Shown here: one piece after another, positions 4,095 to 29,004 of the stretch
How the letters are laid out: each line of letters starts with the position of its first letter
Numbering within the stretch: the stretch's first letter is position 1
Source of the DNA: a virus
Length of the DNA: 29,892 nucleotides
Direction: 5' to 3' (one strand)
IMG/VR virus record: IMGVR_UViG_3300036715_000959
Location: 1 to 29,892 of that record
Notes under the pieces: generated by a model
The model's input: the letters and a program-made list of their open reading frames with translations, nothing else
Databases searched by the model: none
What the model was told of the DNA's origin: nothing
Position numbers and translations under genes: made by a program

Positions 4095-4895
4095 ATGGAA
4101 ATCCAAGACAGCATTTCAACCCCGGAGGATCGACCCGTCGTCTGTACGATCCTCGGGGATGCGGGGATGGGGAAAACCTCACTCGCCGCCACCTTCCAGA
4201 ACCCGATCTTCATCCGGGCGGAAGACGGTATGCAGGCGATCCCGGCGGCCACCCGGCCCAAGGCCTTCCCGGTCTTGCGGGCGGCGATCCGCGAGGGTGT
4301 CGAGGTGACGGTACAAGACCAAATCCGCGACCAGCTTGGCTACCTGCTGCGCGAGAAGCACGACTTCAAGACGGTGGTGTTCGACAGCGTTACTGCGCTG
4401 GAAAGCATCTTCACCGACCACATCGTGGACAGCGACCCCAAGAAGCCGAAGGGCATCCAGCAGGCTCTGGGTGGCTACGGCGCAGGCCGGGACGCAGTGG
4501 CGTCCATGCATCGCCGCCTCCGCATGTCGGCGGAAAGTCTGGTCACCAAGCGCGGCATGAACGTCGTGTTCATCGCCCACGCGGAGACGACCAAGATCGA
4601 CCCGCCGGATGCCGAGAGCTACACCAAATATGTGATGCGGATGCACGAGAAGTCCCAGCAACCCTACCTCGACAATGTCGATCTGGTGGGCTTCCTGCGA
4701 CTGCAGACGTTCATCACGGGCGAGACCGGCGAACGCAAGCTGGCGCGGTCGAGCGGTACTCTGGAACTGGTCTGCCATGCGACGGCGACCAACGTCTCCA
4801 AGAACCGCTACGGCATCACCGAACCCATGGTCTTCGAGATGGGCAAGAACCCGCTCGAAGCCTTCATTCCCCAACTGAAAGGGACGACCAAATGA
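4095..4895 (+). CDS. Sak4-like RecA-fold ATPase (single-strand annealing recombination)
   Basis: Protein of 266 aa with a RecA/RAD55-type P-loop NTPase core: Walker A GDAGMGKTS at 21-29, Walker B-like TVVFDSVTAL around 93-102, and a sensor-like strand VVFIAHAETT around 157-166. The size, domain make-up and position directly before an SSB-like gene match the Sak4/phage nucleotide-binding family, which helps anneal single strands during phage recombination. AAGGAG at 4084-4089 lies 5 nt before the ATG and fixes the start. It is the first gene of the rightward operon. Its stop overlaps the ATG of the SSB-like gene. Alternative: a general AAA_24 phage ATPase with a different role in replication. 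Confidence 0.8.
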   Translation: MEIQDSISTPEDRPVVCTILGDAGMGKTSLAATFQNPIFIRAEDGMQAIPAATRPKAFPVLRAAIREGVEVTVQDQIRDQLGYLLREKHDFKTVVFDSVTALESIFTDHIVDSDPKKPKGIQQALGGYGAGRDAVASMHRRLRMSAESLVTKRGMNVVFIAHAETTKIDPPDAESYTKYVMRMHEKSQQPYLDNVDLVGFLRLQTFITGETGERKLARSSGTLELVCHATATNVSKNRYGITEPMVFEMGKNPLEAFIPQLKGTTK

Positions 4896-5524
4896 GCGAC
4901 GATTTCTGGGGCCTTTCCGACGGCAAGGACGTCAAGGACGAGATCAAGGACGGCAGCTACGACACCGGCGCCGGCGGATTCACCCTGATCCCCAAGGAGA
5001 CCGAGGTGCTGGCCTTGGCCGAGGAGGTCAAGTGGGCCAAGAAGGAGGAAGACACCTCCAAGCATATCGCCATCCGCTGGCTGGTGATCGCGCCGGAGAG
5101 CCTGAAGAACCGCAAGGTTTTCCAGAAAATTCGGGTGAAGGAAGCCGACAGCAACACGCCTCCCGAGAAGCGGCAGCAGAAGGTCGACAACGCCAAGCGG
5201 ATGTTCGGCGCGATTGACTTTAACTGCGGCGGAAAGCTTCTGGCGGCGCGGCGCGAGCCTACCGACGAAGACCTGATGCAACACATCGCCAACAAGATGA
5301 TGGTGCTGAAGATGGGCGTCGTGAAGATGGGCGACGGCAGCCACATGAACTTCGTGTCGGCGGTCGGCCCCAAGGACAAGCCTCCGACGTCCGACGCCGA
5401 GGTCGAGGCCGCGCAGAAGCGTCCAGAGTTCCAGTCGATGCGGTCTGGGGCCTCCACTGGGGGTGGTGGGACCGGGCGGCGTGATCTCGACGATGAAATC
5501 CCATTTGCTCCGCAATTTTTGTGA
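4892..5524 (+). CDS. Single-stranded DNA-binding protein-like
   Basis: Protein of 210 aa. The start is the ATG that overlaps the upstream stop (ATGA). The core (residues ~25-160) is charged and strand-rich without a textbook OB-fold signature. The C-terminus is Gly-rich and then acidic, with RDLDDEIPF close to the end; this strongly resembles the acidic DDxIPF tail that SSB proteins use to recruit partners, here followed by four extra residues. Position between a Sak4-like ATPase and a YqaJ-type exonuclease supports an SSB role in recombination and replication. Similar phage proteins are often annotated DUF669 or unknown. The SSB call rests on the tail and the neighbours. Confidence 0.65.
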   Translation: MSDDFWGLSDGKDVKDEIKDGSYDTGAGGFTLIPKETEVLALAEEVKWAKKEEDTSKHIAIRWLVIAPESLKNRKVFQKIRVKEADSNTPPEKRQQKVDNAKRMFGAIDFNCGGKLLAARREPTDEDLMQHIANKMMVLKMGVVKMGDGSHMNFVSAVGPKDKPPTSDAEVEAAQKRPEFQSMRSGASTGGGGTGRRDLDDEIPFAPQFL

Positions 5525-5961
5525 GCAATGACGACATAGAAACGTGGCGTCCGGTTCCCTCTTTGCCGGGCGTCATGGCCTCAAGCTGGGGTCGAATATT
5601 ACTACCCATCTAAGGTGGCGAAGATGCTCCACGGCGGCATGCGTGAATACAAATCTGAGCCTAGATACGGTCACAAAACCTCCGCAAAAGTCGGCGCATT
5701 ACACGTCTACATGAACATAAGCACGAGGCAGTTCTGGAACATAAAAATTCACCGATCCGTCTGCGAAGCGTTTCACGGGCCTGCGCCTGAAGGGAAGTCA
5801 TACGTCCTACATGCCGATGAGGACGGAAAAACAACAGACCGGAGAACCTTAGCTGGGGAAGCCAAAAGGAAAATCTGAACGCCGCAGGTTTTCTTGAATA
5901 TTGCCGTGGCCGGACCGGCGAAAACAGTCCTGCAACTAAGGGTAAGAGGAGAAGAAATTGA
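5521..5961 (+). pseudogene. HNH homing endonuclease remnant with two frameshifts
   Basis: Three pieces of one HNH/NUMOD-type phage endonuclease lie in order. Piece 1 starts at a GTG overlapping the SSB stop (GTGA) and reads ETWRPVPSLPGVMASSWGRI until a TAA at 5611-5613. Piece 2 is one frame over (about 5604-5829): KVAKMLHGGMREY, then WNIKIHRSVCEAFHGPAPEG and YVLHADEDG. Piece 3, back in the first frame from about 5830, reads NNRPENLSWGSQKENLNAAG and runs to a TGA at 5959-5961. The N-x-x-P-E-N-L and W-G-x-Q-x-E-N motifs are diagnostic of this family. The changes amount to one extra base near 5604-5612 and one missing A in the A5 run at 5827-5831, together restoring frame. As written it cannot make a full protein. 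It is either a decayed homing gene or contains sequencing errors. The ORF 5615-5878 is only its middle. Confidence 0.8.
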
Positions 5962-6845
5962 CCGAAATCAATGACCAGCAACGCAGCGCGGAATGGTTCG
6001 CATCCCGGCGCAACAAGCTGACGGCTAGCGACTTTGGTGCGATCATGGGGGTCGACCCAAACCGGACCCGGGAAGACGTCCTGCGGGCCAAGGTGCGCGA
6101 GCATCACGGGGCCGAGCGAGAGTGGAACGGCAACATCGCCACACAATGGGGCGAGACCCACGAGCCAGAGGCGCGGGAGGCGTTCGAGGTCTACACCGGC
6201 CTGAAGGTGACCCGGGCCAGCTTCGTGATCTCCGACAACTTCCCGTGGGTGGGTGCCAGTCCGGATGGCTACGTCGGCGACGACGCCAACTTCGAAGCCA
6301 AGTGCCCCTTCGGTCTGCGCAACGATACCTACCCGGTGGCCTTCAAGACGATCAAGGAGCAGCCGCACTACATGTTTCAGGTGCAGGGCCAGATGTTCGT
6401 CACCGGGCGCATCAAGACCTATTTCTGGCAGTGGACGCCGAACGATCGCGCCCTGACCGAGATCGAGTACGACCCTGACATCGTGCAGGAATTGATGGCC
6501 GGTCTGGAGGCATTCCGGGTCGATTTGGTGAAGGCCATCATGGAGCCGGAAGACTATCTGGAAAGCCCCCGCAAAATGGTTGACACCATCCGAGCGCGCC
6601 AGATGGTGGCCGAGATGGATGACCTGACCGAGGCCATCGAGAAAGCTACCGAGCGCAAGAAGGAGCTTCTGGACGAGATCGTGCAGGCCGCCGGTAGCAA
6701 GAACGCGATCTTCGGAGGCCGCAAGCTGACCAAAGTCGAGAAGTCCGGCGCGATCTCCTACGCATCTGCCATCAAGGTGTTGGCCCCCAACGCTAACCTA
6801 GAACCGTGGCGCGGGAAGCCCTCCAGCTACTGGCTGTTCAAATGA
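5958..6845 (+). CDS. YqaJ-family (lambda-type) exonuclease
   Basis: Protein of 295 aa of the YqaJ viral recombinase / lambda-exonuclease PD-(D/E)XK family. Residues 17-32 (RRNKLTASDFGAIMGV) and GETHEPEAREAFE are family hallmarks. The catalytic set is visible as Asp103 in GASPDGYVG and Glu113-x-Lys115 in FEAKCP. A charged helical segment (about 210-245) follows. The enzyme would resect duplex ends 5'-3' for the annealing proteins encoded just upstream. The start is TTG at 5958, supported by AGAGGAG 6-7 nt upstream and overlap with the HNH remnant's stop. No ATG is available nearby without losing the conserved N-terminus. The stop overlaps the ATG of the next gene. Confidence 0.88.
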   Translation: MTEINDQQRSAEWFASRRNKLTASDFGAIMGVDPNRTREDVLRAKVREHHGAEREWNGNIATQWGETHEPEAREAFEVYTGLKVTRASFVISDNFPWVGASPDGYVGDDANFEAKCPFGLRNDTYPVAFKTIKEQPHYMFQVQGQMFVTGRIKTYFWQWTPNDRALTEIEYDPDIVQELMAGLEAFRVDLVKAIMEPEDYLESPRKMVDTIRARQMVAEMDDLTEAIEKATERKKELLDEIVQAAGSKNAIFGGRKLTKVEKSGAISYASAIKVLAPNANLEPWRGKPSSYWLFK

Positions 6846-7193: not shown

Positions 7194-7433
7194 ATGACCG
7201 AAGCTGTGAACCACCCAGCCCACTATGGCGGAGACACGCCGTACGAGGTGATCAAGGTTCTGAAGGCGTGGCTGACGCCGGAAGAGTACCGTGGGTTCCT
7301 GAAGGGGAACGTCCACAAGTACCTCGCCCGGGCTGGCAAGAAGGGCCGTCAAGACGAGGATCACAAGAAGGCCCAGTTTTACCAGAACGCGCTTGTGGAG
7401 TTCGACAAGGAGCAAGAAAATGGACAAGGTTGA
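7194..7433 (+). CDS. DUF3310 family protein
   Basis: Protein of 79 aa, nearly all of it a DUF3310 domain: VNHPAHYGGDTPYEVIKV at the N-terminus and NVHKYLARAGKKG in the middle. This domain is frequent in phage nucleotide-metabolism regions, sometimes fused to nucleotide kinases; its biochemical role is not established. The start at 7194 fits the conserved NHPxHY start and an AGAGG about 10 nt upstream. In-frame upstream codons back to 7122 lack conservation features. It overlaps the start of the ThyX gene by 14 nt. Confidence 0.85.
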   Translation: MTEAVNHPAHYGGDTPYEVIKVLKAWLTPEEYRGFLKGNVHKYLARAGKKGRQDEDHKKAQFYQNALVEFDKEQENGQG

Positions 7434-8094
7434 CGTTCTCGATCACGGCTTCGTCCGGCTGGTCGATCACATGGGGGGCGACCTGTCGGTCGTCCGCGCT
7501 GCGCGTGTTTCGTACGATGCAGATTGGCGTGCGGGAGAGGATCAGGGCAGCGATGAGCGGCTGATCAACTACCTCTGGAAGAACCACCACACCACTCCGT
7601 TCGAGGCAGTTACCCTCACCTTCGAGGTCAAGGCGCCGATCTTCGTCTTCCGCCAGTGGCATCGCCATCGGACATGGTCCTTCAATGAATTGTCGGCGCG
7701 GTACCGGGAGCTTCCTGAGGAAGTCTATGTCCCTGCTCCCGACATGATCGGGAAACAGTCAGCGTCGTCCAAGCAGGCTCGCTCGCTTGTGGATGCCGAG
7801 GTAGACCATATCAGCCCCGCCATCATGAGGGATGCCGCTCGGGTCGCCTTCGATGCCTACCGACAGCTTCTGGATCGCGGCGTACCGCGAGAACTGGCGC
7901 GGTCGGTCCTTCCGGTCTCGACCTACAGCCATATGTTTGCCACGGTGAACCTGTTGAACCTTCTGAAGTTCCTGACCCTACGCACCCACGAGCATGCCCA
8001 GTGGGAGATCAGGCAGTATGCTTTGGCGATGGCGGAACTCGCCGAGACAGTCGCGCCGGTGTCGGTCAAGGCGTGGTCGGAGGGTCTGAAATGA
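7420..8094 (+). CDS. thyX: FAD-dependent thymidylate synthase
   Basis: Protein of 224 aa. The ThyX signature RHRx7S is present as RHRTWSFNELS (Arg82-His83-Arg84 to Ser92), followed by ARY. The C-terminal third has the usual RSVLPVSTYSHMF and LLKFLTLRTHEHAQWEIRQY segments. It methylates dUMP to dTMP using methylene-tetrahydrofolate, NADPH and FAD, supplying thymidylate for phage DNA. The start is the ATG at 7420 with AAGGAG at 7407-7412 (7-nt spacer). Upstream in-frame codons lie inside DUF3310. Length is typical of phage ThyX and all signature residues are present, so it is expected to be active. Its stop overlaps the methyltransferase ATG. Confidence 0.95.
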   Translation: MDKVDVLDHGFVRLVDHMGGDLSVVRAARVSYDADWRAGEDQGSDERLINYLWKNHHTTPFEAVTLTFEVKAPIFVFRQWHRHRTWSFNELSARYRELPEEVYVPAPDMIGKQSASSKQARSLVDAEVDHISPAIMRDAARVAFDAYRQLLDRGVPRELARSVLPVSTYSHMFATVNLLNLLKFLTLRTHEHAQWEIRQYALAMAELAETVAPVSVKAWSEGLK

Positions 8095-8886: not shown

Positions 8887-10671
8887 ATGACGCTCCGCCC
8901 CTACCAGCAAGAAGCATCCGACGCGGCAATGAACTGGGTTCGCAAGGACCGTTCTCCCTGCCTGATCGAGGCGGCTACCGGCGCCGGCAAGAGCCACATC
9001 ATCGCCGATCTGGCGAAGAAAATTCACGACATCTCGAAAGGCAAGCATGTCCTCGTCCTGCAGCCTAGCGCCGAGCTTGTGGTGCAGAACGCCGAGAAAT
9101 ACCGCGCCACCGGCTCCAAGTGCTCGATCTTCTCGGCCAGCGCCGGGGAAAAGAGCCTGCGCCATCCAGTGGTGTTTGGCACGCCCGGCACGGTCAAGAA
9201 TCGCATTAGCCGCTTTGGTAACCAGTTCGCCGCCGTAGTGGTGGATGAGTGCCACGGCATGACCCCGACCGTGATCGGTATTATCGACGCCATGATGGAC
9301 GCCAACCCGAACCTGCGGGTGATCGGCCTGTCTGCGACCCCCTATCGGATGAAGACCGGCTACATCTTCAAGATCAAGCCAGACGGCAACCCGGTGCCGG
9401 AGAGCCAGACCAAGAACCCCTACTTCACGGCATGCGTCTACCGCGTACGCGCGAGGGAATTGATCGATCAGGGCTACCTGACCGAGCCATTCATCAGCGA
9501 GATCGGGGCCGAGCATTACGAGACCCTTTCCATGCAACTGAACACGCGTGGGCAGTTTGATTCTGCCGACGTGGACGCCGCCTTTGTTGGCCACGGTCGC
9601 AAGACCGCCTCGATCATCGCTGACATCGTAGCCCGCTCGCGGGACCGGGCCGGGGTCATGATCTTTGCTGCCACCGTCGCACACGCCAAGGAGTGCATGG
9701 CGAGCCTGCCTATGGGCCTGTCGGCCATCGTGACGGCGGAGACCCCCAAGAAGCAGCGTGACGCGATCCTAAAAGCCTTCAAGGCCCGCCAGTTGAAGTA
9801 CCTAGTCAACGTGTCGGTGCTGACCACTGGCTTCGATGCGCCGCACGTCGACGTCATTGCTCTTATGCGCGCCACTGAGAGCGTGGGCCTGCTACAGCAG
9901 ATGGTTGGCCGTGGCCTCCGGATTGACCCGGGCAAGAAGGATTGCATGCTGCTGGACTACGCCGAAAACCTTGAGCGGCATTGCCCGGACGGGGACATCT
10001 TCTCCCCGAAGATCAAGGTCACCAAGGGCGACAAGGAAGTCGTCGAGATCGACTGCAAGTGCCCGCTCTGTTCGGCGGAGAACGTCTTCACTGGCCGCCC
10101 GAACCCGGACGGCTACGGCATCGACGACAGCGGCTACTTCACCGATCTGGATGGCAACCGACTGCCTTCTGAATGGGGTGCGATCCCCGCCCACTTCGGT
10201 CGCCGCTGCCAAGGATACATCCGGGTGGCAGGACAGCAGCTTCAGTGCGACTACCGCTGGACCTCCAAGGAGTGCCGGGAGTGCGGCACCGACAACGACA
10301 TCGCTGCCCGCTACTGCTCCTCCTGCAAGTGCGAGATCGTTGATCCCAACGAGAAGCTGCGGATCGAGTTTAAGGCCCGCAAGCGGGACCCGCACCAAGT
10401 CCAGACCGACGCCGTCCTCGACTGGAAGGCGGAGCCGGGTGTGTCAAAGGCTGGAAACTCCACCATCCGTGTGGATGTCAGGACCCCGTACCGGAGCTTC
10501 TCGTTCTGGCTTCAGGCCAAGCCTGCCAGCACCTTTTCGGCAGCCAGCCTTGAGAAGTACGATGCCCTTCAAGGCCACCGGCCACGCACGATCACGTACA
10601 GGAAAGAAAAAAATTCAGGTTTTTACAAAGTGATAGGGTATAATAGACCTGAGGATACTCTATTTGCATGA
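8887..10671 (+). CDS. SF2 DEAD/DEAH-box helicase with zinc-binding C-terminal part
   Basis: Protein of 594 aa. Superfamily-2 helicase motifs in order: Q-like LRPYQQEA at the N-terminus, motif I ATGAGKSH (30-37), motif II DECH (120-123), motif III SATPYR (149-154), TTGFDAPHVD (motif V) and QQMVGRGLR (motif VI). Beyond residue ~390 there are two cysteine clusters (CKCPLC; then CDYRW, CRECG, YCSSCKC) that look like zinc ribbons, then a C-terminal region found in phage members of this family. Probable replicative or recombination translocase acting on duplex DNA. A GAGG lies 8-9 nt before the ATG. The last ~25 codons are AT-rich compared with the rest and run into the GIY-YIG gene, whose ATG overlaps the stop. 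Confidence 0.9.
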   Translation: MTLRPYQQEASDAAMNWVRKDRSPCLIEAATGAGKSHIIADLAKKIHDISKGKHVLVLQPSAELVVQNAEKYRATGSKCSIFSASAGEKSLRHPVVFGTPGTVKNRISRFGNQFAAVVVDECHGMTPTVIGIIDAMMDANPNLRVIGLSATPYRMKTGYIFKIKPDGNPVPESQTKNPYFTACVYRVRARELIDQGYLTEPFISEIGAEHYETLSMQLNTRGQFDSADVDAAFVGHGRKTASIIADIVARSRDRAGVMIFAATVAHAKECMASLPMGLSAIVTAETPKKQRDAILKAFKARQLKYLVNVSVLTTGFDAPHVDVIALMRATESVGLLQQMVGRGLRIDPGKKDCMLLDYAENLERHCPDGDIFSPKIKVTKGDKEVVEIDCKCPLCSAENVFTGRPNPDGYGIDDSGYFTDLDGNRLPSEWGAIPAHFGRRCQGYIRVAGQQLQCDYRWTSKECRECGTDNDIAARYCSSCKCEIVDPNEKLRIEFKARKRDPHQVQTDAVLDWKAEPGVSKAGNSTIRVDVRTPYRSFSFWLQAKPASTFSAASLEKYDALQGHRPRTITYRKEKNSGFYKVIGYNRPEDTLFA

Positions 10672-11348
10672 CGCATTACGTATATACCCATACAAGTTTG
10701 AAGACCGGGAAGGTTTTCTATGTCGGAAAAGGGCAGCGCAGACGTGCATACAACGTCAGCAGCAGAAACCGACACTGGAAGTCTATCGCAGAATCACACG
10801 GATACAGCGTGGAGATCGTACGAGAATTTTCTAATAAATACTGCGCTTTCACCTTTGAAAAAATTATGATCAAAGCCATGTCAGGTCATGGTTTAACAAA
10901 CGTAAGCCCCGGAGGGGAGGGTGGAATTGGTGCCAAAAGTGGCCGAGAAAACCCCATGTTTGGCAGAACCGGTCCAGCGCATCATAGGTTTGGAAAGAAA
11001 TTTACAGACAAAGAGAGGGCGGCAATCAGCGCCGGTCGCAAGACCGGAAAGAAGCAGTTTTTGAGTGAGACTGTCATAGAGGCCACAAGAACCCGTATGA
11101 TAGGCAACAGGTTTTCGGTTGGAGTGAAACATAGTAACGATTTCAAAAAGAAAATTTCTGAGACATTTTCCGGAGAAGGGCACCCATCGTACAAGTGGGA
11201 CGAGTACACTTTCACGCACAACGATGGTCGAATTTTTACCGGAACCATGCATAATTTTTGTGCATCATACGACTTGCTAAAAGGAAATGTGTGCTGGATG
11301 ATCAAGGGTAAACATCAATCGGTAAAGGGTTGGAGGCTACCAGCATGA
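10668..11348 (+). CDS. GIY-YIG homing endonuclease
   Basis: Protein of 226 aa. An N-terminal GIY-YIG nuclease domain is visible: VYTHTSLKTGKVFYVGKG (the 'Y-V-Y' and 'FYVGKG' pair), with the conserved arginine region RRRAYN and a glutamate in FTFEKIMIKAM. The middle contains NUMOD3-type repeats (GRENPMFGRTGPAHHRFGKK; HSNDFKKKISETFSGEGHPS), the usual DNA-binding elements of phage SegA/SegB-like enzymes. The gene is clearly more AT-rich than its neighbours, a sign of separate origin. Its start overlaps the helicase stop and its stop overlaps the VRR-NUC start, so it sits between two genes without disrupting them. A TATAAT at 10639-10644 inside the helicase end may act as a -10 box, though no good -35 is seen. 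Confidence 0.88.
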   Translation: MTHYVYTHTSLKTGKVFYVGKGQRRRAYNVSSRNRHWKSIAESHGYSVEIVREFSNKYCAFTFEKIMIKAMSGHGLTNVSPGGEGGIGAKSGRENPMFGRTGPAHHRFGKKFTDKERAAISAGRKTGKKQFLSETVIEATRTRMIGNRFSVGVKHSNDFKKKISETFSGEGHPSYKWDEYTFTHNDGRIFTGTMHNFCASYDLLKGNVCWMIKGKHQSVKGWRLPA

Positions 11349-13396: not shown

Positions 13397-15309
13397 CAGA
13401 TGCTCCTATTTGCGACTTCCAGCGCGCTGGCGACGGTGTGGTCTGGCGTATTGAGGAGCGGCTCTGTCGAGGTCCCCAGTGCCTTTCTCGCCTTTTCTGC
13501 GGCCCGAATCAAGCGATCCGCACCGATGCCAGCCGCAGCCCCGACCCGGCCACCAGATTTGCGGGCAGCACGGTCATCAACCATCGCCCCGGACAAGTTT
13601 GGTGCCGCGTACGGAACAGAGCCTTGCATGAGGCCGTTTTCGAAATACTTCTGCATGGCTGGCCTCATGGCCTGCGATCCGATCGACTTCTGGATTTGCT
13701 TGTACAGAGGGGTGGCGACAGCAGCACCGGTGGCGAGAGCCGCCGTCAGGGGAGAAAAGTTTCCCATCTGTGCAAGCATCTGAGCACCAGCGTAGGAGCC
13801 TGCAATGGCACCCGGGAGGCCTGTCATGTCGAAGGCGCTGCGGAGGAGTCCATGCTTGCCTTGAGCCGGTAGTTTCTTCAGAACCAAGGCGGCATTCTTG
13901 GCGTAATCTGCGATCTCCCCACGCGTGCCATTTTTGGTGGCCTTTGCCCCTTGGCGAACCAATGACTGCATGAGATCGTTTGGGTGTAGCATGCCAATGA
14001 GGCCATATTCCTTGTTTTGACCGGTCAGCTTCAGCGCACCAGAGATCGCAAGAAAGTTCCGATAGTACATGCGAGCCTGACCGAGAAGATCGGTACGCCA
14101 AGTCTCTCCGGTGGCCGTCACAGCATCATCCAAAGCGTTGTCGATCGCATCCCTAAGCCGATATGCGGTATCCTTTACGGCAGCGTTGTCGCTTTGCAAC
14201 ATGGACCCAAGGGACTGGCGCCACTTATCCATAGCTGTGGCCGGGATCGGCGTGCCGTTCTGGGCTGCCTGCTTGATCGTACTGGACACATGGGCCGGAA
14301 GACCAGTCTGGACCGACGCTGGAGCGTTCATCAGGTAGTCCGCAGTGATGTCGTCAACCTGTCGAACTACCCTTGCAGACGGAATTACGTCGACCCCCTG
14401 AAGAGCGACATCGAATGCTTGACCAATCGCAGTTTCAGAATCTTTTAGAGCCTTCGACGTGACAATCGGAGATTTGGAGCCGATGTATTGCATGGCCCCC
14501 TTAGTGAAGTCCGCGATCTGGCCGCTCTCTGGGTTATCACCAGCGAGAGCCTGCCCGGCATGCGTATCAGCCTCCCAACCCATTACCTTTGGGGAGTTCG
14601 TTGCCTGACCTGCGGTTACCTGAATGCCGCGCTTGCGGAGAGCATCGACAGCGGCCTGCCTGATCGGGTTGGCAGCCTCCTCGACAGGGGTCACCAGACG
14701 TCGAACGCCGTTGGATATGCCCGTTCCCCCCAGACCACCGATGGTGGCCCCGGCGATCCTTGCGGCCTGCGTCCAGCCGCTGTCCGGGCCGAACTTGGAC
14801 TCTGCCAGATTTCCTGCGCCCTCGCTGGCGATGGCGGGGACGGCAGCGCGCAAGACGAGCTTTGTAGCCAAGGAGCCGGGTCCAGTAAAAGCCCCCGGAA
14901 CGAACTCCGAAGCAGTTCCAATAAAATGGGAGCCTGCCGTCTTGCCGCGATACTCGGTGCGGCCCTCACTGATGTCGGCCAGCTTGGACTGCAACCCAGA
15001 GCCAGTGAATATCTCGGGAACCTTCCCGGCCTTGAGTGCCTCGACATTGCCCAGACCAAACTTGTCCATGACCCAGTCGTTCGCGTCTCCAGTCATGTTG
15101 TAGATGGAGCCGGGAAGGCCAGCGAATTGCGCCGTACCGCGCGCAAGGCCGGCACTGGCGGAATCGAAATAGTCGGAGAATGACCCAGCCTCATGTGGGA
15201 CACGAAAGCCGTCGTCAGGGCCAAGAGGGGTTTGAACTTTGGATAGGTCTGGACCAGACTGGACCGGTGCCGCAGGAGCAGTGATTTTGGAAAGATCAGG
15301 ACCAGCCAT
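13396..15309 (-). CDS. Internal virion / DNA-ejection-type protein
   Basis: Product of 637 aa from ATG 15309, which shares a base with the stop of the 1204-aa gene (TAATG); a longer in-frame start at 15342 would overlap that gene. The N-terminus repeats a GPDLSK motif (AGPDLSKI; SGPDLSKV), followed by an Ala/Gly-rich, largely helical protein with amphipathic segments (EFVPGAFTGPGSLATKLVLR; AIAGSYAGAQMLAQMGNF; AALATGAAVATPLYK). Size, composition and position after the lysozyme-bearing protein match the ejected internal proteins of podoviruses, thought to form a channel through the cell envelope. No enzymatic motif is visible. The assignment comes from context and composition, not a strong domain. 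Confidence 0.6.
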   Translation of the reverse strand: MAGPDLSKITAPAAPVQSGPDLSKVQTPLGPDDGFRVPHEAGSFSDYFDSASAGLARGTAQFAGLPGSIYNMTGDANDWVMDKFGLGNVEALKAGKVPEIFTGSGLQSKLADISEGRTEYRGKTAGSHFIGTASEFVPGAFTGPGSLATKLVLRAAVPAIASEGAGNLAESKFGPDSGWTQAARIAGATIGGLGGTGISNGVRRLVTPVEEAANPIRQAAVDALRKRGIQVTAGQATNSPKVMGWEADTHAGQALAGDNPESGQIADFTKGAMQYIGSKSPIVTSKALKDSETAIGQAFDVALQGVDVIPSARVVRQVDDITADYLMNAPASVQTGLPAHVSSTIKQAAQNGTPIPATAMDKWRQSLGSMLQSDNAAVKDTAYRLRDAIDNALDDAVTATGETWRTDLLGQARMYYRNFLAISGALKLTGQNKEYGLIGMLHPNDLMQSLVRQGAKATKNGTRGEIADYAKNAALVLKKLPAQGKHGLLRSAFDMTGLPGAIAGSYAGAQMLAQMGNFSPLTAALATGAAVATPLYKQIQKSIGSQAMRPAMQKYFENGLMQGSVPYAAPNLSGAMVDDRAARKSGGRVGAAAGIGADRLIRAAEKARKALGTSTEPLLNTPDHTVASALEVANRSI

Positions 15310-18300
15310 TATTGCGCCCATTTTCCGTTGTGAACGACCCACGGCTTTCCGCCAGAGATATCCGGAGCCGTGGTTCCGTCAGGCAGGGGGGCACCGCTCG
15401 AAGACACTGCCGCCGGGGCTTCCACCGTCTCACCCTTGACGTGGATGGCGGCCTTGGCGTCTTCCATGTACTTGGAGAGCGGACTCGCCTGAGAGAACCA
15501 TGACGTGTACCCAGTTTGATCGTACGGATCACCTCCGGCCTTGACGAACGCATCCCTCATCCCCGGAGAGTAATAGTCCGTCTGCCACTGAGTCATACCC
15601 TTGCTCATCGCAAGGATGGCACGGACGGAGTCTGGCTGCAAGTTCGGATCAGCCGCCAGCTTGGAAAGCTGGTCAATCTCAGCCCGTGGGGCGCCACCCG
15701 GCATATCGGAAAGCTGGGCGATCATCTGGGCCGTCATGTTCTTCACAACAGTCTGGGCGCTTGCGGCGTCGGCTGCAGCGTCACCTGAAACTGGGGCACC
15801 AAAAGCCTGAAGAATGGCCGTCACGTTGGTGTTCAGGTCGGTCAATGCCCCCGGCTGGAAACCAGAATAGATGTCTACCATGTGGTCGATATTGGCCGCC
15901 TGACCCTGAAGCTGCGGTATAGCAGCCATCGCCTTCCCACGGAACTCTGCGGTCGCAACCCGGTTCGCCTCGGCGGTGCTGGCATCATTCGCCGCTCCGC
16001 GCATCCCCGGGTTTACCACAACGGAGCCGGGGGTAGACCCGGTGGAGATTCCACTTGCATTGATCTGTGCCAGCTTGGCCTGAGCGTCCTCAACCATATT
16101 TTTGTAGAGAGGCACGCTGGACAGAATAGCCATCTTTGCCAGCATCTGGTTCAGGAAGGCCGGGTCTTGGTTCAGCGGAATACCATCAGGACCAACGGCG
16201 CCGCTCTTGTAGGCAGTCGCCATATCCTGAGCCGACATCGCAGCAAAGCCACCCCCGTCAGCGCCGGGGATCACCCCAACAGTGGAGCCGATCCCAGAAC
16301 GATCGACGTACCCCGGCGGGAGATCGTACCCGATCATTGCGGCATAGTCTGGGACCGACATGTTGTAGGCTGCCGCCCCGCCGATGACATCGTTCAGTGT
16401 GCCAACGTTCGTCTGGGATGTTCCTGCACGCGTCAGGCCAATGTCAGCAGCCTGCTTCTGGAGGCCGGCTTCGGTGTTGGCGAATCCACCCAGACCCTGA
16501 AGCATCGCGGCACCAAGATACCGGCTGGGAGACGACGCCATGGTGCCGAGACCAGACAAGACCGACAGCAGGAAGTTCTTGTCCAGCTTCCCGGTCTCCG
16601 GGTTGATGGCCATATCCTTCACGTTGCTCCAGATGTCACCACCTTGACGCGGGTCGCCACCCATGGTCGATCTGGTTATCCCGTTTCCACCGCCAGAGCC
16701 GCCGCCCCAGACCGGCTGTGCGGCGCCCATGTACTCCGCCGCCCGCTGATCGCGGTACTGCTGGGCGGGCTTCTCGTAGCCGTCCAAGAAGATCACTGCA
16801 GCCTCACCGGGGGTCTTGGCCTGCTCCATGGCTGCCAACACCTCAGGGTAATTATCGCGCAGGTCCTTGACGATGTAAGCCGACTGGAACGTCGGATCAG
16901 CCGGATTGATGCCTGCCTTGTTGGCGGCAGACAGATACCGGTCTTTCCGGTCCTTGTACCACTGAACAAAACCGTAAGACTGGTGGCTATCACCGCTTGC
17001 CGCCGGGTTGAAGCTGCTCTCGCTGCCGATGTTCAGCAGGATACCGGCACCAACGACAGGCGGCAGACCGGAGTTGGTGAACACGTTCATGACGTGCTCT
17101 TGCATGCTTCCAGCCGGGATCGACACGCGGGCATGACCGACGGGGGAACCAAGGCCGCTCGGTACGGTCGGGCCGGGCAGCTTGGCCGTGCCATGCGGCA
17201 TCGGGGCCGGGGTGATCTCACCCATGTCCCTGATGGGCGGCAGCACTCCACCGGGGGCAGACTGCGGCGTGCCGATTCCGGCAGCCGCCAGATCAGCCGC
17301 CCCCAGACCAGCAGGCGCCGGACGAGGCTTCGGCATCAAGGAGGAGGAGATGACATCCCCAGCTTCGTGTGGGCTGGACGGCAGCAGGCCGCCGGCACCT
17401 GCGGTAGGAGCCGGCTGCCCACGTCCTGCCATGTCGGCGTACATTTCCGGGTGGGTGATCTGCACGTTTCCGCTGGCAGGGGCCACAGCCGCAGCGCCAA
17501 GTCCGGTCGGAGCATAGTCCGGCACGGTCGGTTTGCTGACGATCTCCACAGGGTCGATCGGCGCGGGTGGCACGAGGCCGCCGGGCGGGGTATAGCTGTA
17601 CCCATCGTACGACGGAGCGCCGCCGTCGGCGTAGCCCGCCACACCGCCACGGTTCATGAACTTCATGGCAGTCTCGGCAATATTAGCTACCTTACTGAAG
17701 TCGGATTGGCCTTGGCTTGGAGCTTGCGCTGTCTGAAGCTTAGGATTGGGCTGCTGCGCCTGCTGCGCAAGAACTCCACCCATGTACCCTTGCTGCTGCA
17801 CCGGGTTTACCGCGCCGCCGTCCGCGCGCCGCACGAGACCACCACGGTAGCGACGACCGACAGGAGAGGCGTCCGGGCCGCCGCCGGTAAGGGTGCCATA
17901 GTCGTTCTTCAGGCTGACAATGCTGTCGCCGAGGCTGGCAGAGGCATTGATCATGTTCGCCAGATTATCTTGCGCCTGCTGGCCCAGAGCCGGGTCGGAG
18001 ACCACCAGTTGGCCGACAGGAAGGTAGGCGTCAGGAACGTATCCACCAAGGCCCGGAGAAGACCCCACGGCAGCACCGTATGGGCCAGCCGGCGCCCCGC
18101 CACCTGCGTAACCAGCCGGCACAAGGCCGCCGCGTGCGCGGGCTGCTCGCTCGTAATCCACGGTTTTGTAGCCGCTGTTCGGGTCCGTACCGACAGCGTC
18201 GGGGTGCTTCTTCTCCACCTCGTCGGCCATGAAGCCGATACGCGGCATGTCGTCCCCTTTGTAGTTGAAGGAGTAGATCGGAAGCCCGTTGTCGGCCTTG

Positions 18301-18923
18301 CCGATGCGCCGGATTTTCTCCTTCAGACGGCGATCCGAGAAGAAGGAATACGGCTGCTGGGTGGTCGTGGTAGACCCAGAAAGCGCGCCGGTTCCCTCCG
18401 CGATATTAGCGAGGAACTGAGCCGTCTGGAACGGGTATGCCTGCTGCTGCATGAACTGGTTGTATAGGGCAGACAGGCCCGCTTGGTCAGTCTGCTGCTG
18501 GGCTTGCTGCTGCTGTTGCGCCACACCAAGGGCTTGATTGTAAGAATCGCTATAGAGACCAGACGCGATCTGTGCGTTTCCCATCATCTGTTGCTGGTTC
18601 AGATTGGCCGCCGCGATGCCAGATCGGTCTCCACCGAATGCGCCAGATGATATGGCGGTGCCAAGCTGCCCTGCCTGCGCCTGCTGGTTCTGCTGCCCAA
18701 CGATGTTCATGGTCGAGTTGACCACATCGTTGATATATGGGTTCTGGTACTTCTCGATGTCCAGCGGGTTAAGTTGTGCCACGAACGCGTTCGGGTCTGT
18801 GGAATACTTCTGGAACGGGTTCTGCGCTGCGCCAGAGGCTATGTCATTGACCTGATTATAGCGGTTCAGCACATCCTGAGGAATTTGAACTTGCGACGTC
18901 GATGTTGAAGTTTTGCCGCCCAT
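15309..18923 (-). CDS. Large internal virion protein with S74-type region and tail-lysozyme domain
   Basis: Protein of 1204 aa. Residues 1-190 are Gln/Ala-rich (QVQIPQDVLNRYNQVNDIAS near the start, then poly-Gln). Residues ~196-258 match the peptidase S74 / intramolecular chaperone motif: SDRRLKEKI, then RIGFMADEVEKKHPDAV. A long Pro/Gly-rich linker follows (~260-600). Residues ~606-735 form a phage tail lysozyme-like domain (GAGILLNIGSESSFNPAASG with a probable catalytic Glu near 635, YGFVQWYKDRKDRYL). The remaining ~450 residues are helical and Ala-rich. Likely injected or tail-tip protein that locally digests peptidoglycan during DNA entry. It is coupled to its neighbours by TGATG (start) and TAATG (stop). 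S74 domains usually end fibres, so the early position is odd. Confidence 0.75.
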   Translation of the reverse strand: MGGKTSTSTSQVQIPQDVLNRYNQVNDIASGAAQNPFQKYSTDPNAFVAQLNPLDIEKYQNPYINDVVNSTMNIVGQQNQQAQAGQLGTAISSGAFGGDRSGIAAANLNQQQMMGNAQIASGLYSDSYNQALGVAQQQQQAQQQTDQAGLSALYNQFMQQQAYPFQTAQFLANIAEGTGALSGSTTTTQQPYSFFSDRRLKEKIRRIGKADNGLPIYSFNYKGDDMPRIGFMADEVEKKHPDAVGTDPNSGYKTVDYERAARARGGLVPAGYAGGGAPAGPYGAAVGSSPGLGGYVPDAYLPVGQLVVSDPALGQQAQDNLANMINASASLGDSIVSLKNDYGTLTGGGPDASPVGRRYRGGLVRRADGGAVNPVQQQGYMGGVLAQQAQQPNPKLQTAQAPSQGQSDFSKVANIAETAMKFMNRGGVAGYADGGAPSYDGYSYTPPGGLVPPAPIDPVEIVSKPTVPDYAPTGLGAAAVAPASGNVQITHPEMYADMAGRGQPAPTAGAGGLLPSSPHEAGDVISSSLMPKPRPAPAGLGAADLAAAGIGTPQSAPGGVLPPIRDMGEITPAPMPHGTAKLPGPTVPSGLGSPVGHARVSIPAGSMQEHVMNVFTNSGLPPVVGAGILLNIGSESSFNPAASGDSHQSYGFVQWYKDRKDRYLSAANKAGINPADPTFQSAYIVKDLRDNYPEVLAAMEQAKTPGEAAVIFLDGYEKPAQQYRDQRAAEYMGAAQPVWGGGSGGGNGITRSTMGGDPRQGGDIWSNVKDMAINPETGKLDKNFLLSVLSGLGTMASSPSRYLGAAMLQGLGGFANTEAGLQKQAADIGLTRAGTSQTNVGTLNDVIGGAAAYNMSVPDYAAMIGYDLPPGYVDRSGIGSTVGVIPGADGGGFAAMSAQDMATAYKSGAVGPDGIPLNQDPAFLNQMLAKMAILSSVPLYKNMVEDAQAKLAQINASGISTGSTPGSVVVNPGMRGAANDASTAEANRVATAEFRGKAMAAIPQLQGQAANIDHMVDIYSGFQPGALTDLNTNVTAILQAFGAPVSGDAAADAASAQTVVKNMTAQMIAQLSDMPGGAPRAEIDQLSKLAADPNLQPDSVRAILAMSKGMTQWQTDYYSPGMRDAFVKAGGDPYDQTGYTSWFSQASPLSKYMEDAKAAIHVKGETVEAPAAVSSSGAPLPDGTTAPDISGGKPWVVHNGKWAQ

Positions 18924-24830: not shown

Positions 24831-25436
24831 TCACGCCTCATTCATCGACGGAAGTTGATCGCTCTTAATGAAGGGCAACGGAACCTTCGGGTTGGCGTAG
24901 CTGGACGGCCATCGGGTGGCGATGCAGCGCGCCTTCGGGACAGGTACAACACTAACCTTGTCACCCTGATTGCCGCCGAGCACCATGTAGTTCAGGTTGT
25001 CCTGACCTACCGCGAAACCGACATGGCCGCCACCGGGGCGCTTGAACACCACCACGCAGCCGTAGACCGGCTGGGTCTCGACCCCGAAGTACGCCCAGTT
25101 CTGGGCATAGTAGGGGTTCTCCTTCATCACGCCGGTGAAGACCTCTCCCGGCAGACCACGCTTCATGGCAGTCTCGGCGAAATCGCCGCACCACGGTAGC
25201 TGGGCCGGGTCGCCCAGACGGGAGCCGTCGGAATAGAGCCAAGTGCGCAGGACGTAGTTATCGCGCACCTCGTGCAGCCCGATGACCTTTCGGCCCTCGT
25301 ATATCCAAGGAGGATCGTTCGGGACGACTTCATGCAGTCCGAACGCCCCTTTGGATGCCTTCAGTGTATTCGGCCCGAACACTCCATCATCATCAACGCC
25401 GATGATGCGTTGCCATTCCTTGATTTCTTCATTCAT
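24831..25436 (-). CDS. Endolysin with peptidoglycan-binding and CHAP-like amidase domains
   Basis: Product of 201 aa from ATG 25436, which overlaps the upstream stop (ATGA). Residues ~1-35 look like half of a peptidoglycan-binding repeat (EIKEWQRIIGVDDDGVFGPN). Residues ~75-180 resemble the TIGR02594/CHAP cysteine amidase family: LPWCGDFAETAMKRGLPG with the catalytic Cys, GGGHVGFAVGQ with the catalytic His, and MVLGGNQGDKVSVVPV. No signal peptide is present, so release would depend on a holin. The mature enzyme should cleave peptide bonds in the cell wall at the end of infection. Confidence 0.82.
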   Translation of the reverse strand: MNEEIKEWQRIIGVDDDGVFGPNTLKASKGAFGLHEVVPNDPPWIYEGRKVIGLHEVRDNYVLRTWLYSDGSRLGDPAQLPWCGDFAETAMKRGLPGEVFTGVMKENPYYAQNWAYFGVETQPVYGCVVVFKRPGGGHVGFAVGQDNLNYMVLGGNQGDKVSVVPVPKARCIATRWPSSYANPKVPLPFIKSDQLPSMNEA

Positions 25437-25804
25437 GGTCCCCACCCCATTGCGATCTTGATCTTGGTCCAAAAAATCAGCCAGAGAGCCGCGAAGCTCG
25501 TAGACATCAAACCGAGTACGATAAGCACGCCCTTCCCGATGTCCTGCCAGTGCTCCACCAGCTTGGCCGTCGGCTCAACGTCATTCATACGACGGAGCAT
25601 GTCCTTCTGGGCAACCATCATCTCGTTCTGTATGCGGGCCATATCATCAACCTTGATGTTCATGACCTCATGGTAGGTTCTTGTATCTTTCCGTTCCTCG
25701 TCAAATTGCCTCATATGTGTTTCGAGTCGCTCCGCCATGAGGGCGATCTGCGTCGACATGCTGCTGGCTCCGGTCGATCTTGATGTCATGTCGAGGCTAT
25801 CCAT
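25433..25804 (-). CDS. Coiled-coil protein with C-terminal membrane anchor (lysis region)
   Basis: Protein of 123 aa. Residues ~20-80 are charged and heptad-like (ALMAERLETHMRQFDEERKD; ARIQNEMMVAQKDMLRRMND), and one membrane segment lies at ~94-114 (VLIVLGLMSTSFAALWLIFW), followed by KIKIAMGWGP. The layout resembles DUF1515-type phage proteins found beside endolysins, which may assist lysis. The start is uncertain: ATG 25804 has no clear ribosome site, while the in-frame ATG 25759 has GGAG 8 nt upstream. Its stop overlaps the endolysin start. A spanin-like role is possible but not supported by a lipobox partner. Confidence 0.6.
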   Translation of the reverse strand: MDSLDMTSRSTGASSMSTQIALMAERLETHMRQFDEERKDTRTYHEVMNIKVDDMARIQNEMMVAQKDMLRRMNDVEPTAKLVEHWQDIGKGVLIVLGLMSTSFAALWLIFWTKIKIAMGWGP

Positions 25805-25829: not shown

Positions 25830-26291
25830 TTAGGAGGAAATCGAGCCTTTGATGATGTTTACCTGAAGCTGAACAGCCTCAGAAAGGATCGAACCTGTGG
25901 TGTTTTCCACGGTTATATCGTACGAACCATCTCTCGTTCCGCTGATCCACGCGCGGTATTTTCCAGATGGCGTGATCACAACCACAACCGGGGTGTCGGT
26001 GATCAGAAAATTCGTGCTGCTGACAGTGAAGGGGGCGTTGTAGTACGCGTTCAGGGCGGTTGCGGCCATAGTGATCCGACCGGAGTCCGCATTCAACGTG
26101 ACTCCAGTGTACTTGTCGGTTGTCTGAGTAACAGTGCCACCACCCACGATGGTGTAGCTGACGACACCGATCCCGATGTAGGCCTGCCGCAGCGACCCCC
26201 TCACAGAGGTACCGGCCTGAACAAGCTCGAAAAGCTCATCGCCAGAGAAGGCAATCGCCGCTGGAAGGTTTGGAATTTGGATGTTCGACAT
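25830..26291 (-). CDS. Small virion protein with fibre-type N-terminus
   Basis: Protein of 153 aa. The N-terminus (MSNIQIPNLPAAIAFSGDEL with FELVQAGTSVRGSLRQA) resembles the short attachment segment at the start of many tail-fibre or head-decoration proteins. The rest is beta-rich (VVSYTIVGGGTVTQTTDKYT). AGGAG 8 nt before the ATG sets the start. It follows the two glycine-rich proteins and precedes the lysis genes, so it probably belongs to the receptor-binding apparatus. No catalytic residues seen. Confidence 0.6.
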   Translation of the reverse strand: MSNIQIPNLPAAIAFSGDELFELVQAGTSVRGSLRQAYIGIGVVSYTIVGGGTVTQTTDKYTGVTLNADSGRITMAATALNAYYNAPFTVSSTNFLITDTPVVVVITPSGKYRAWISGTRDGSYDITVENTTGSILSEAVQLQVNIIKGSISS

Positions 26292-26301
26292 TTAGTGTCT
26301 C

Positions 26302-27651
26302 CTACCAAGAGAATACATAGATCGCGCCATTTCCGCCAGCCCCGCCATTACCACCGATGCCCGGGTCCATGCCTACCCCACCGCCACCACCGCTGCCGCC
26401 GCAAGCTCCCCCGTTTCCGCCGTTTGCGCCAGCGGTTGAAGCTGTAACAGTAGAGCCACCACCACCACCGCCTGCACCACCCCGGGCGCTTGAGCCTGCT
26501 GCACCCGCCGCTCCCGCCGTTGGGCTTGCCCCTGATGTGCCGGCCACACCGCCGCCGCCTATCGTGTAGGAATTTGAGGCTCCCCCATCTACTGCAGCAA
26601 TGGCAGTCGGGGTCGCATCGTGGTTTCCTCCGCCCCCACCTCCACCGCCGCCGCGCAGTGAGGAGCCTCCAGCGCCCATCGCAGCGCCCGAGGAACCTCC
26701 GCCGCCCCCTCCGCCACCCCCAAACTCAGCGTTATGGGTGGTGACCACCGAGGCGATGGTCCCCACAGACCCGGTCCCAGCGACCATGCCCGTGTTTCCT
26801 GCGCTGCCCGGAAGGCCTCCACCTCCGGCGACGGTTGACCCGGATCCACCGGCAGAAGCTGTTCCGCCACCACCGCCACCTCCGGTGGTAAGCGCGGAGT
26901 TCTGTCCGCCGCCACCACCACCGCCGCCGCCGGCCAGAAGTCTCACTGGAGACCCAAACGTCGTGTTTCCACCAATGGAGCCAGAAGACCCGGAACCACC
27001 TGCGACAGCGCCGATACCGCCAGCTCCGCCCTGACCGACGTTCAGGCTTTCGATGGACCCAAGATCAAGAGCAGAGAAGAGACGGTTATTGTAGGCACCT
27101 CCGCCACCGCCTGCGCCACCCTTTGCGACAACTGCGGTTGCTAGTGATGCTCCTCCTCCACCGCCTCCACCTCCGCCGAACATGACAACTTCAACGAACT
27201 TCGGGGTGAAACTTGTCGGCTTCGTCCATGTCCTGACCCCGGGGGTCGTGAAGGTTTGAACATCCGAAACAGAAGCCTGCCAGCCCACCGGAATAGAGGC
27301 TCCGTTCAATGTCACCCAGTCTCCGTCGTCGACGAAGATCGCCACCTCTCCGACGTCAAGGGTTCTTCCGTAAACCTTCATCGCGTTGGTGCCGTCAAAC
27401 ACCTCGACCGTGACCGTGCAGGCCGTTAAGGCGCCACGATTTGCGATGTAGATGGAGTTGACCTGTCTCTGGGTCGACGCCGCAGGTGCAGCGATAATGG
27501 TCGTCGTAGCCGCCGTCGTGATCGAAGTTTCAGTATTCGCGGGCGTCATGTCTATCGTGGTGACATCCTGAAAATTGGCAACCACGTTGATGGTCGCCGC
27601 AACCGAAGTCGTCACCCGTACGAGCTTTGATGTGGTATCGAGTACGATCAT
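26302..27651 (-). CDS. Glycine-rich adhesin-like tail protein, copy B
   Basis: Protein of 449 aa. Residues 1-150 are a beta-type domain (IVLDTTSKLVRVTTSVAATI; VFDGTNAMKVYGRTLDVGEV; TWTKPTSFTPKFVEVVMFGG). From about 155 to 440 the protein consists of long poly-Gly runs separated by short variable peptides (ASLATAVVAKGGAGGGGGAY; VVTTHNAEFGGGGGGGGGSS), ending GNGAIYVFSW. This resembles the polyglycine type II helix folds of some phage receptor-binding adhesins, where variable loops protrude from a Gly bundle. It is a paralogue of the adjacent gene at 27658-29004. Likely cell-surface binding; receptor unknown. Start has no strong Shine-Dalgarno. Confidence 0.7.
   Translation of the reverse strand: MIVLDTTSKLVRVTTSVAATINVVANFQDVTTIDMTPANTETSITTAATTTIIAAPAASTQRQVNSIYIANRGALTACTVTVEVFDGTNAMKVYGRTLDVGEVAIFVDDGDWVTLNGASIPVGWQASVSDVQTFTTPGVRTWTKPTSFTPKFVEVVMFGGGGGGGGGASLATAVVAKGGAGGGGGAYNNRLFSALDLGSIESLNVGQGGAGGIGAVAGGSGSSGSIGGNTTFGSPVRLLAGGGGGGGGGQNSALTTGGGGGGGTASAGGSGSTVAGGGGLPGSAGNTGMVAGTGSVGTIASVVTTHNAEFGGGGGGGGGSSGAAMGAGGSSLRGGGGGGGGGNHDATPTAIAAVDGGASNSYTIGGGGVAGTSGASPTAGAAGAAGSSARGGAGGGGGGSTVTASTAGANGGNGGACGGSGGGGGVGMDPGIGGNGGAGGNGAIYVFSW
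26840..26899. repeat. 60-nt tract identical to 28190-28249
   Basis: This 60-nt stretch of copy B is identical, base for base, to 28190-28249 of copy A. Two further identical tracts are 26702-26745 versus 28055-28098 (44 nt) and 27088-27126 versus 28438-28476 (39 nt). Flanks diverge, including at silent sites, so the paralogues have probably exchanged these blocks by recombination or conversion. Confidence 0.85.
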
Positions 27652-27657
27652 CTCGGG

Positions 27658-29004
27658 TCACCAAGTCAGGACGTAGATCGCCCCATTTCCGCCTACGCCG
27701 CCCGCGCCGCCCACGCCGGGGTTCATGCCGCAGCCGCCTCCGCCGCCGCCGCCGCCGCAGTTGCCGCCGTTGCCGCCTGCAGCGCCCGCCGTAGACGCCG
27801 TGACAGATGTGCCGCCACCTCCGCCACCCGCGCCACCTCTGGCACTCGTTCCTGCTGTGCCGTTGGTACCAGCCGTCGGCGCGGCACCGTCCGTCCCGAC
27901 TGCGCCACCGCCGGCGGAGACATAGGCATTCGATGCGCCGCCAGCCGCTCCGGCGATGACTGCCGGGGTCGCATTGTGATGTCCACCGCTGCCGCCACCG
28001 CCGCCGCCTCGCAAGGATGATCCGCCCGTGCAGGAAATCGGGGTCGCGGTCGATCCGCCCCCTCCGCCACCCCCAAACTCAGCGTTATGGGTGGTGACAA
28101 CGGTGACCGTACCCTGAGACCCGGTGCCACCAACGCCGCCCGTGACGTTCGGGGTGCCCGGTGTTCCGCCAGCGCCAACCGCAGACGTGCCGGATCCACC
28201 GGCAGAAGCTGTTCCGCCACCACCGCCACCTCCGGTGGTAAGCGCGGAGATTTGTCCGCCCATTCCGCCTCCGCCGCCGCCGGCGAACAGAAGTGTCACA
28301 GCACTGAAGGTCGTGTTCCCGCCGATACCGCCCGTGCCGCCCGCCGCTCCAGCCGTACCCGCCGCGCCGGATGTGCCACCAACGCCCACGCTGAGCGTCT
28401 CTGTGGCCCCCAGATCAGATGCGAGGAACGTGCGCTCATTGTAGGCACCTCCGCCACCGCCTGCGCCACCCTTTGCCACCACAGCCGTCGCCAAAGAGGC
28501 TCCGCCGCCTCCACCGCCGCCAGCACCGTACATGATCACCTTAACGAACTTCGGAGTGAAGGTCGTCGGCTTCGTCCATGTTCCGGCACCTGTCGAGGTG
28601 AATGTCTGCAGGTCTGTGGGGCCACCCACCTGAGCAATCATCGGAAGCGCCGCGCTGGACAGCGTGGAGAAATTACCGATGGCATCGCAGATGATCGTCT
28701 CGCCAGCTTGCAGGTTGCGGCTGTACGGACGCATGGCATTGGTGCCGTCAAATACCTCGACGGAGACTTGACATGGGTTCGTGGCATCCCGGTTGGTGAT
28801 CATCAAGCTTTTGACCTGCCTCTGGGTCGACGCCGCAGGTGCCGCCACCACTGTCGTGGTCGTGGCCGTCGTGATCGGGGTCTCGGTGTTTCCGAGCGTG
28901 AAGGCTGACGAAGTGATGTCAGCCCAGTTTGCGACCACGTTGATCGCAATGGCAGAGCCGGTCACGATCCGGACGATTTTGGAGGTGGTATCAAGAATGA
29001 TCAT
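27658..29004 (-). CDS. Glycine-rich adhesin-like tail protein, copy A
   Basis: Protein of 448 aa, similar to the copy at 26302-27651 over its whole length: same N-terminal domain (ILDTTSKIVRIVTGSAIAIN; STQRQVKSLMITNRDA; EVFDGTNAMRPYSRNL), same Gly-rich body and a matching end (GNGAIYVLTW). Loops between Gly runs differ (for example SVGVGGTSGAAGTAGAAGGT here versus NVGQGGAGGIGAVAGGSG there). It starts 3 nt after the stop of the upstream fibre gene. Probably a receptor-binding or fibre-tip protein; two copies may give two specificities or heteromers. Confidence 0.7.
   Translation of the reverse strand: MIILDTTSKIVRIVTGSAIAINVVANWADITSSAFTLGNTETPITTATTTTVVAAPAASTQRQVKSLMITNRDATNPCQVSVEVFDGTNAMRPYSRNLQAGETIICDAIGNFSTLSSAALPMIAQVGGPTDLQTFTSTGAGTWTKPTTFTPKFVKVIMYGAGGGGGGGASLATAVVAKGGAGGGGGAYNERTFLASDLGATETLSVGVGGTSGAAGTAGAAGGTGGIGGNTTFSAVTLLFAGGGGGGMGGQISALTTGGGGGGGTASAGGSGTSAVGAGGTPGTPNVTGGVGGTGSQGTVTVVTTHNAEFGGGGGGGSTATPISCTGGSSLRGGGGGGSGGHHNATPAVIAGAAGGASNAYVSAGGGAVGTDGAAPTAGTNGTAGTSARGGAGGGGGGTSVTASTAGAAGGNGGNCGGGGGGGGCGMNPGVGGAGGVGGNGAIYVLTW
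28190..28249. repeat. 60-nt tract identical to 26840-26899
   Basis: Partner of the tract at 26840-26899, lying in the Gly-rich part of copy A (encodes the LTTGGGGGGGTASAGGSG region). It could serve as a homologous recombination site that would delete or fuse the two paralogues. Confidence 0.85.

Follow-up and report, generated by a model that had tools for sequence, protein, structure and literature searches.

A tandem pair of glycine-rich, adhesin-like tail genes in a phage genome, with short identical tracts best read as gene conversion

Introduction

Tetart et al. (1998) reportedly claim, as their title has it, that adhesins of T-even phages recombine between conserved glycine motifs. In the long-tail-fibre adhesins of the gp38 type (T2, S16, PP01), poly-glycine II helices carry hypervariable receptor-binding loops (PMC12892980; PMC12529663), so that the combination of glycine motifs with hypervariable loops is established for gp38. 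The gp33 protein of mycobacteriophage Bxb1 is described as similar to the S16 gp38 bundle (PMC13243192), and the gp24 fibre of cyanophage Pam3 combines a TNF-like domain with a glycine-rich lattice, its variable distal tip being the least conserved part and the proposed host binder (PMC9608196). Neighbouring tail proteins of this sort have also been predicted: gp31 and gp32 of mycobacteriophage Mysterious are consecutively numbered minor tail proteins with predicted poly-glycine domains, and conversion tracts are not reported for them in the portion of that source considered here (PMC13252515). Single-strand annealing proteins (SSAPs), including Sak4, reportedly recombine diverged DNA and contribute to phage mosaicism (PMC5499656).

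Here we describe two adjacent adhesin-like genes, winUp and winDn, in a 29,892-base stretch of viral DNA (the window); the stretch makes up one IMG/VR virus record in full and is classed as linear. Like gp38 adhesins, their products carry conserved glycine-rich motifs with variable segments; unlike them, they are encoded in tandem and have another N-terminal domain, and gp38 was absent from the structural matches listed for winUp. As two neighbouring proteins with a putative poly-glycine domain they can be likened, by description, to gp31 and gp32 of Mysterious. A sequence-only reading of the window had proposed duplication and gene conversion for the pair, with loops varying on a fixed glycine scaffold and possibly giving two specificities or being shuffled between copies to alter host range, without a reverse transcriptase.

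Results

The upstream gene winUp (27658-29004, minus strand, 448 aa) and the downstream gene winDn (26302-27651, minus strand, 449 aa) are neighbouring ORFs on the same strand, separated by 6 nt and with intact frames in both copies, and their proteins share 66% amino acid identity. In the order of minus-strand transcription they follow a tail-fibre-like gene that is truncated at the contig end (29008-29892, minus strand), and are themselves followed by a gene for a 153-aa protein directly downstream of winDn (25830-26291, minus strand; phrog_18251), a gene for a 123-aa protein, a gene for a CHAP-like lysin (24831-25472, minus strand) and tail genes. Relatives of the 153-aa protein were found inside longer ORFs adjoining lysin and tail genes in sister phages. 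The product of the fibre-like gene matched phrog_13925 and phrog_692 (virion structural) and showed about 55% identity over about 45% of its length to Rhodobacter phage proteins; this last similarity hints weakly at a host among the alphaproteobacteria. The same gene contains internal repeats of about 98 nt with 68-84% identity. Elsewhere in the window, a 1204-aa protein (15309-18923, minus strand) has a phage tail lysozyme domain and an internal Peptidase_S74 (endosialidase chaperone) domain, and the plus strand carries a gene for a ThyX-type thymidylate synthase (7393-8094) and a probable homing endonuclease gene (10668-11348), in which the NUMOD3 motif exceeded its cut-off and the GIY-YIG match was weak.

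Both proteins consist of an N-terminal domain (aa 1-125), encoded at 28630-29004 in winUp and at 27277-27651 in winDn (both minus strand), and a C-terminal glycine-rich domain. The poly-glycine, adhesin-like architecture proposed earlier is supported by Pfam Gly_rich_2 (PF21722; 27.1 bits for winUp and 24.7 bits for winDn, both above the gathering cut-off of 24.3), by the winUp structure model and by its match to Bxb1 gp33; both proteins also matched phrog_863, a tail family. For winUp, AlphaFold (28 rows) gave a model with a mean pLDDT of 80.8 and low confidence at 274-307; it comprised an N-terminal part built of beta-strands throughout and a glycine-rich part. The model of winDn (ten rows) had a mean pLDDT of 59.4 and was too poor in the glycine domain for use. 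With Foldseek, the best solved match of the winUp model was the Bxb1 gp33 "tail wing brush" (PDB 9d93; E 1.5e-8, TM 0.72-0.76 by target), and the Pam3 fibre gp24 (PDB 7ypx), which also has a glycine-rich domain, was matched at E 1.6e-3. The rmsd values were large (7-10 Å), so these matches speak for architecture only. A sequence profile searched against PDB likewise gave Bxb1 gp33 as its sole match at E<=1 (E 0.0022), and S16 gp38 (PDB 6F45) was absent among the best 50 Foldseek PDB matches listed for the winUp model. Bxb1 gp33 differs in phage type and host, and its match lies mainly over the glycine-rich part; Pam3 gp24 differs in its helical N-terminal anchor, in being a single fibre and in having a separate chaperone. 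Published descriptions give both of these matched proteins glycine-rich helical or lattice domains.

Repeated conserved glycine blocks with variable segments between them were seen in the family alignment and in the within-clade nonsynonymous rates (dN) by column class. The N-terminal domain occurred in MAG contigs fused to unrelated C-termini whose glycine content was just 7-11%, an arrangement suggestive of an anchor whose tips can be exchanged; the domain is presumed to attach the proteins to the virion. The contigs with these glycine-poor C-termini (L109-L116) were binned with several bacterial phyla. By analogy, which is the sole direct link to a receptor role, winUp and winDn are probably receptor-binding tail proteins, and their glycine-rich domain probably forms poly-glycine type II helices bearing host-binding loops.

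Searching the fetched loci with phmmer, we found single copies of the gene in about 12 contigs and tandem pairs in seven (L014, L015, L016, L017, L018, L020 and L022); these copy counts were upheld in the whole records of 18 contigs, which may themselves be fragments. A search of contigs with the N-terminal domain gave 13 loci. In the tree, winUp and winDn paired with a support of 100/99, and they did so with the same support when the N-terminal domain was used alone; the C-terminal domain without the tracts described below still paired them, with a support of 91/90, just below the starred level. In the seven other tandem genomes, on the other hand, upstream copies fell into one clade and downstream copies into another, and the duplication in those genomes is thus older than and independent of that of the window pair. 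As far as these sequence trees tell, the window pair is a lineage-specific duplication, apart from the older pair in the seven contigs, which has the same head-to-tail layout in the same family. winDn appears to be the faster-diverging copy, having an end branch of 0.47 versus 0.15 for winUp; relative-rate counts in the C-terminal domain pointed in the same direction, with p<0.05 for 5 of 6 outgroups and no significance with L009. Windows of amino acid identity had suggested that the winDn loops were imported from another phage, an idea we rejected on the grounds that trees free of the tracts still pair both copies, albeit with support slightly short of the starred level.

Among GenBank phages, tblastn gave no match to winDn, and the homologue in L007 as query gave only a weak N-terminal match. 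None of the tail genes of the window was present within the fetched flanks of the adhesin-bearing loci, and none of the sister phages recognised by those tail genes had this adhesin, indicating that the module moves between phage backbones. One relative of 195 aa (L021:5968-6555) has the N-terminal domain and the first glycine block joined in frame to the last, with about 243 codons missing, consistent with a deletion through recombination between glycine-coding stretches or with assembly collapse.

The two window genes share three long exact tracts, all on the minus strand and in register: 60 nt (26840-26899 in winDn, 28190-28249 in winUp), 44 nt (26702-26745 and 28055-28098) and 39 nt (27088-27126 and 28438-28476). 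A further exact tract of 23 nt lies in the N-terminal domain (27467-27489 in winDn, 28820-28842 in winUp; minus strand) and is not significant alone. Of 290 residues identical in both proteins, 140 were encoded by the same codon. Inside the three long tracts codons matched at 46 of 48 such residues, compared to 94 of 242 outside, where 86.5 would be expected from independent codons with the same usage. Silent sites between the two genes are therefore essentially saturated outside the tracts, and their overall silent divergence was 1.0-1.4 (Nei-Gojobori). When matches and mismatches were permuted within each amino acid, the longest observed run of matching codons, 19, was reached in none of 5000 shuffles (p<2e-4), and the chance product multiplied by the number of possible starts was 1e-8, 3e-4, 5e-4 and 0.09 for the 60-, 44-, 39- and 23-nt tracts. 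Thus the earlier observation of adjacent paralogues of about 450 aa with identical tracts and diverging flanks held up, divergence along the genes being far from uniform.

Across 17 between-genome comparisons, which took in either copy or single-copy relatives, the longest nucleotide run was at most 24 and the longest codon run had p<0.05 in none (0/17). The longest codon run was significant in none of the seven other tandem pairs either, and four of the seven gave p values of 0.01-0.04 on a looser sum-of-squares statistic, values that could stem from faint ancient exchange or from multiple testing; besides its separate duplication, this older pair differs from the window pair in that its clustering of identical codons is weak or absent. 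Protein conservation was rejected as the cause of the tracts, given that mean family entropy was 1.04 at tract positions versus 1.02 outside and that random placement was equally low half the time. Chance and codon bias were rejected on the strength of the shuffles within amino acids and the expectation from codon usage. What was found is the pattern of a gene-converted paralogue pair: stretches of identity within a duplicate that is saturated elsewhere, and none like them in the 17 comparisons between genomes. These sequences are best read as the product of short-tract gene conversion that followed an earlier duplication, in agreement with the duplication and conversion first proposed, which the pairing of the two genes in the tree also supports.

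The plus strand of the window encodes a Sak4-like single-strand annealing protein (4095-4895; phrog_124, E 6.7e-40; AAA_24), a single-strand DNA binding protein (SSB; 4892-5524; phrog_9002, E 5e-42) and a YqaJ/RecE-like recombination exonuclease (5958-6845; PF09588, E 2.2e-25; phrog_434, E 1.3e-43). The exonuclease, the Sak4-like protein and the SSB are plausible conversion machinery, and we infer that they may have been the enzymes that acted. No reverse transcriptase family was found among the window proteins scanned, and the tract pattern is explained without any reverse transcriptase, as the sequence-only reading had it.

Loop variation could be followed in three near relatives (L017, L020 and L022), whose flanking DNA was mostly about 3-7 differences per 100 nt apart; in the glycine domain the differences rose to as many as 45 per 100 nt. 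In the comparison of loops with scaffold that the sequence-only reading had called for, dN was 0.08-0.21 at non-glycine columns, the corresponding values for glycine columns and for the N-terminal domain being 0-0.04 and 0.01-0.03. On these three relatives, the idea of loops varying on a fixed glycine scaffold is therefore supported. In most pairs silent divergence, too, was raised at non-glycine columns, a pattern that suggests the import of divergent segments and not selection on point mutations alone.

Discussion

The account that we consider probable begins with a whole-gene tandem duplication of a receptor-binding tail protein made of a beta-rich anchor and a C-terminal glycine-rich domain. 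The copies would then have drifted to silent-site saturation, the downstream one faster, until, more recently, short-tract conversion replaced the sequence of three or more stretches, 39-60 nt long, every one of which spans a single glycine block and adjoining residues. The RecE-like exonuclease, Sak4-like annealing protein and SSB would have worked on homologous glycine-coding DNA, and the outcome would be a phage with two adhesins, related yet different. That the two have different host specificities is plausible.

Conversion might instead keep partly alike two proteins that serve as distinct structural components of a single tail, such as an adaptor and a tip or the members of a hetero-oligomeric brush. 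The closest solved structure is indeed named a tail wing brush and is not a proven receptor binder, and the unrelated older tandem pair falls into separate stable orthologous groups, as expected for distinct roles; against this, the two window copies agree in domain plan and length, and relatives with a single copy are common; we regard a division into two parts as unlikely. The loop-shuffling device suggested earlier goes further, making the glycine-coding tracts crossover points that move loop cassettes between copies and so create new specificities. The tandem adhesins would then be an internal reservoir, from which phage-encoded annealing recombination would move short glycine-anchored segments between the copies within one genome, and if this were true, host-binding loops would be re-sorted without an encounter with another phage. 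Divergent loops flanked by tracts fit such a scheme, as do the hypervariable loops of the near relatives, where silent divergence is raised too, as expected for imported segments, and the recombination at conserved glycine motifs reportedly claimed for T-even adhesins by Tetart et al. in 1998. In seven tandem genomes, however, no segment of 15 codons had at least 85% identity to the paralogue while exceeding the orthologues, the C-terminal domains of the window copies still pair without the tracts, and outside the tracts these copies are no closer than expected from descent. Shuffling between copies thus found no backing, and we consider both the device and the internal reservoir quite improbable. 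The conversion tracts make the copies locally alike and are not evidence for loop shuffling.

The tracts themselves could owe their identity to something other than conversion. The window is one metagenome-derived virus record of 29,892 bases, and such repeats pose difficulties for assembly, so that an assembler may have merged or copied sequence between similar genes; yet the tracts are short compared to a typical read length, frames are intact in both copies, and independent tandem pairs occur in seven other contigs, all of which leaves such an artefact very improbable. A constraint on DNA or RNA, from codon bias or a shared element, is to our mind the faintest prospect: the biased composition of glycine-coding DNA does raise chance identity, but the shuffles stayed within each amino acid and the expectation was drawn from the codon usage of the two genes themselves, such tracts were missing from the 17 comparisons with other genomes, and 23-24-nt pieces of two of the tracts had no match in two exact-pattern scans of IMG/VR, a search set from which very close records may have been absent.

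Under our preferred account, tandem duplication of a receptor-binding gene, saturation and later short-tract conversion, the window pair varies a known phage route for changing host-binding proteins and is not a new device. To the glycine-rich systems already described, the present analysis adds a tandem pair that is clearly dated and bears short conversion tracts, along with another tandem duplication of independent origin within the family. Phages have come back repeatedly to glycine-rich adhesins for host recognition, and two independent tandem duplications, one of them with clear short conversion tracts, suggest that adhesins have evolved more than once by way of copy number and exchange within the genome. 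winUp and winDn offer a concrete pair for asking whether phage annealing recombinases drive adhesin exchange.
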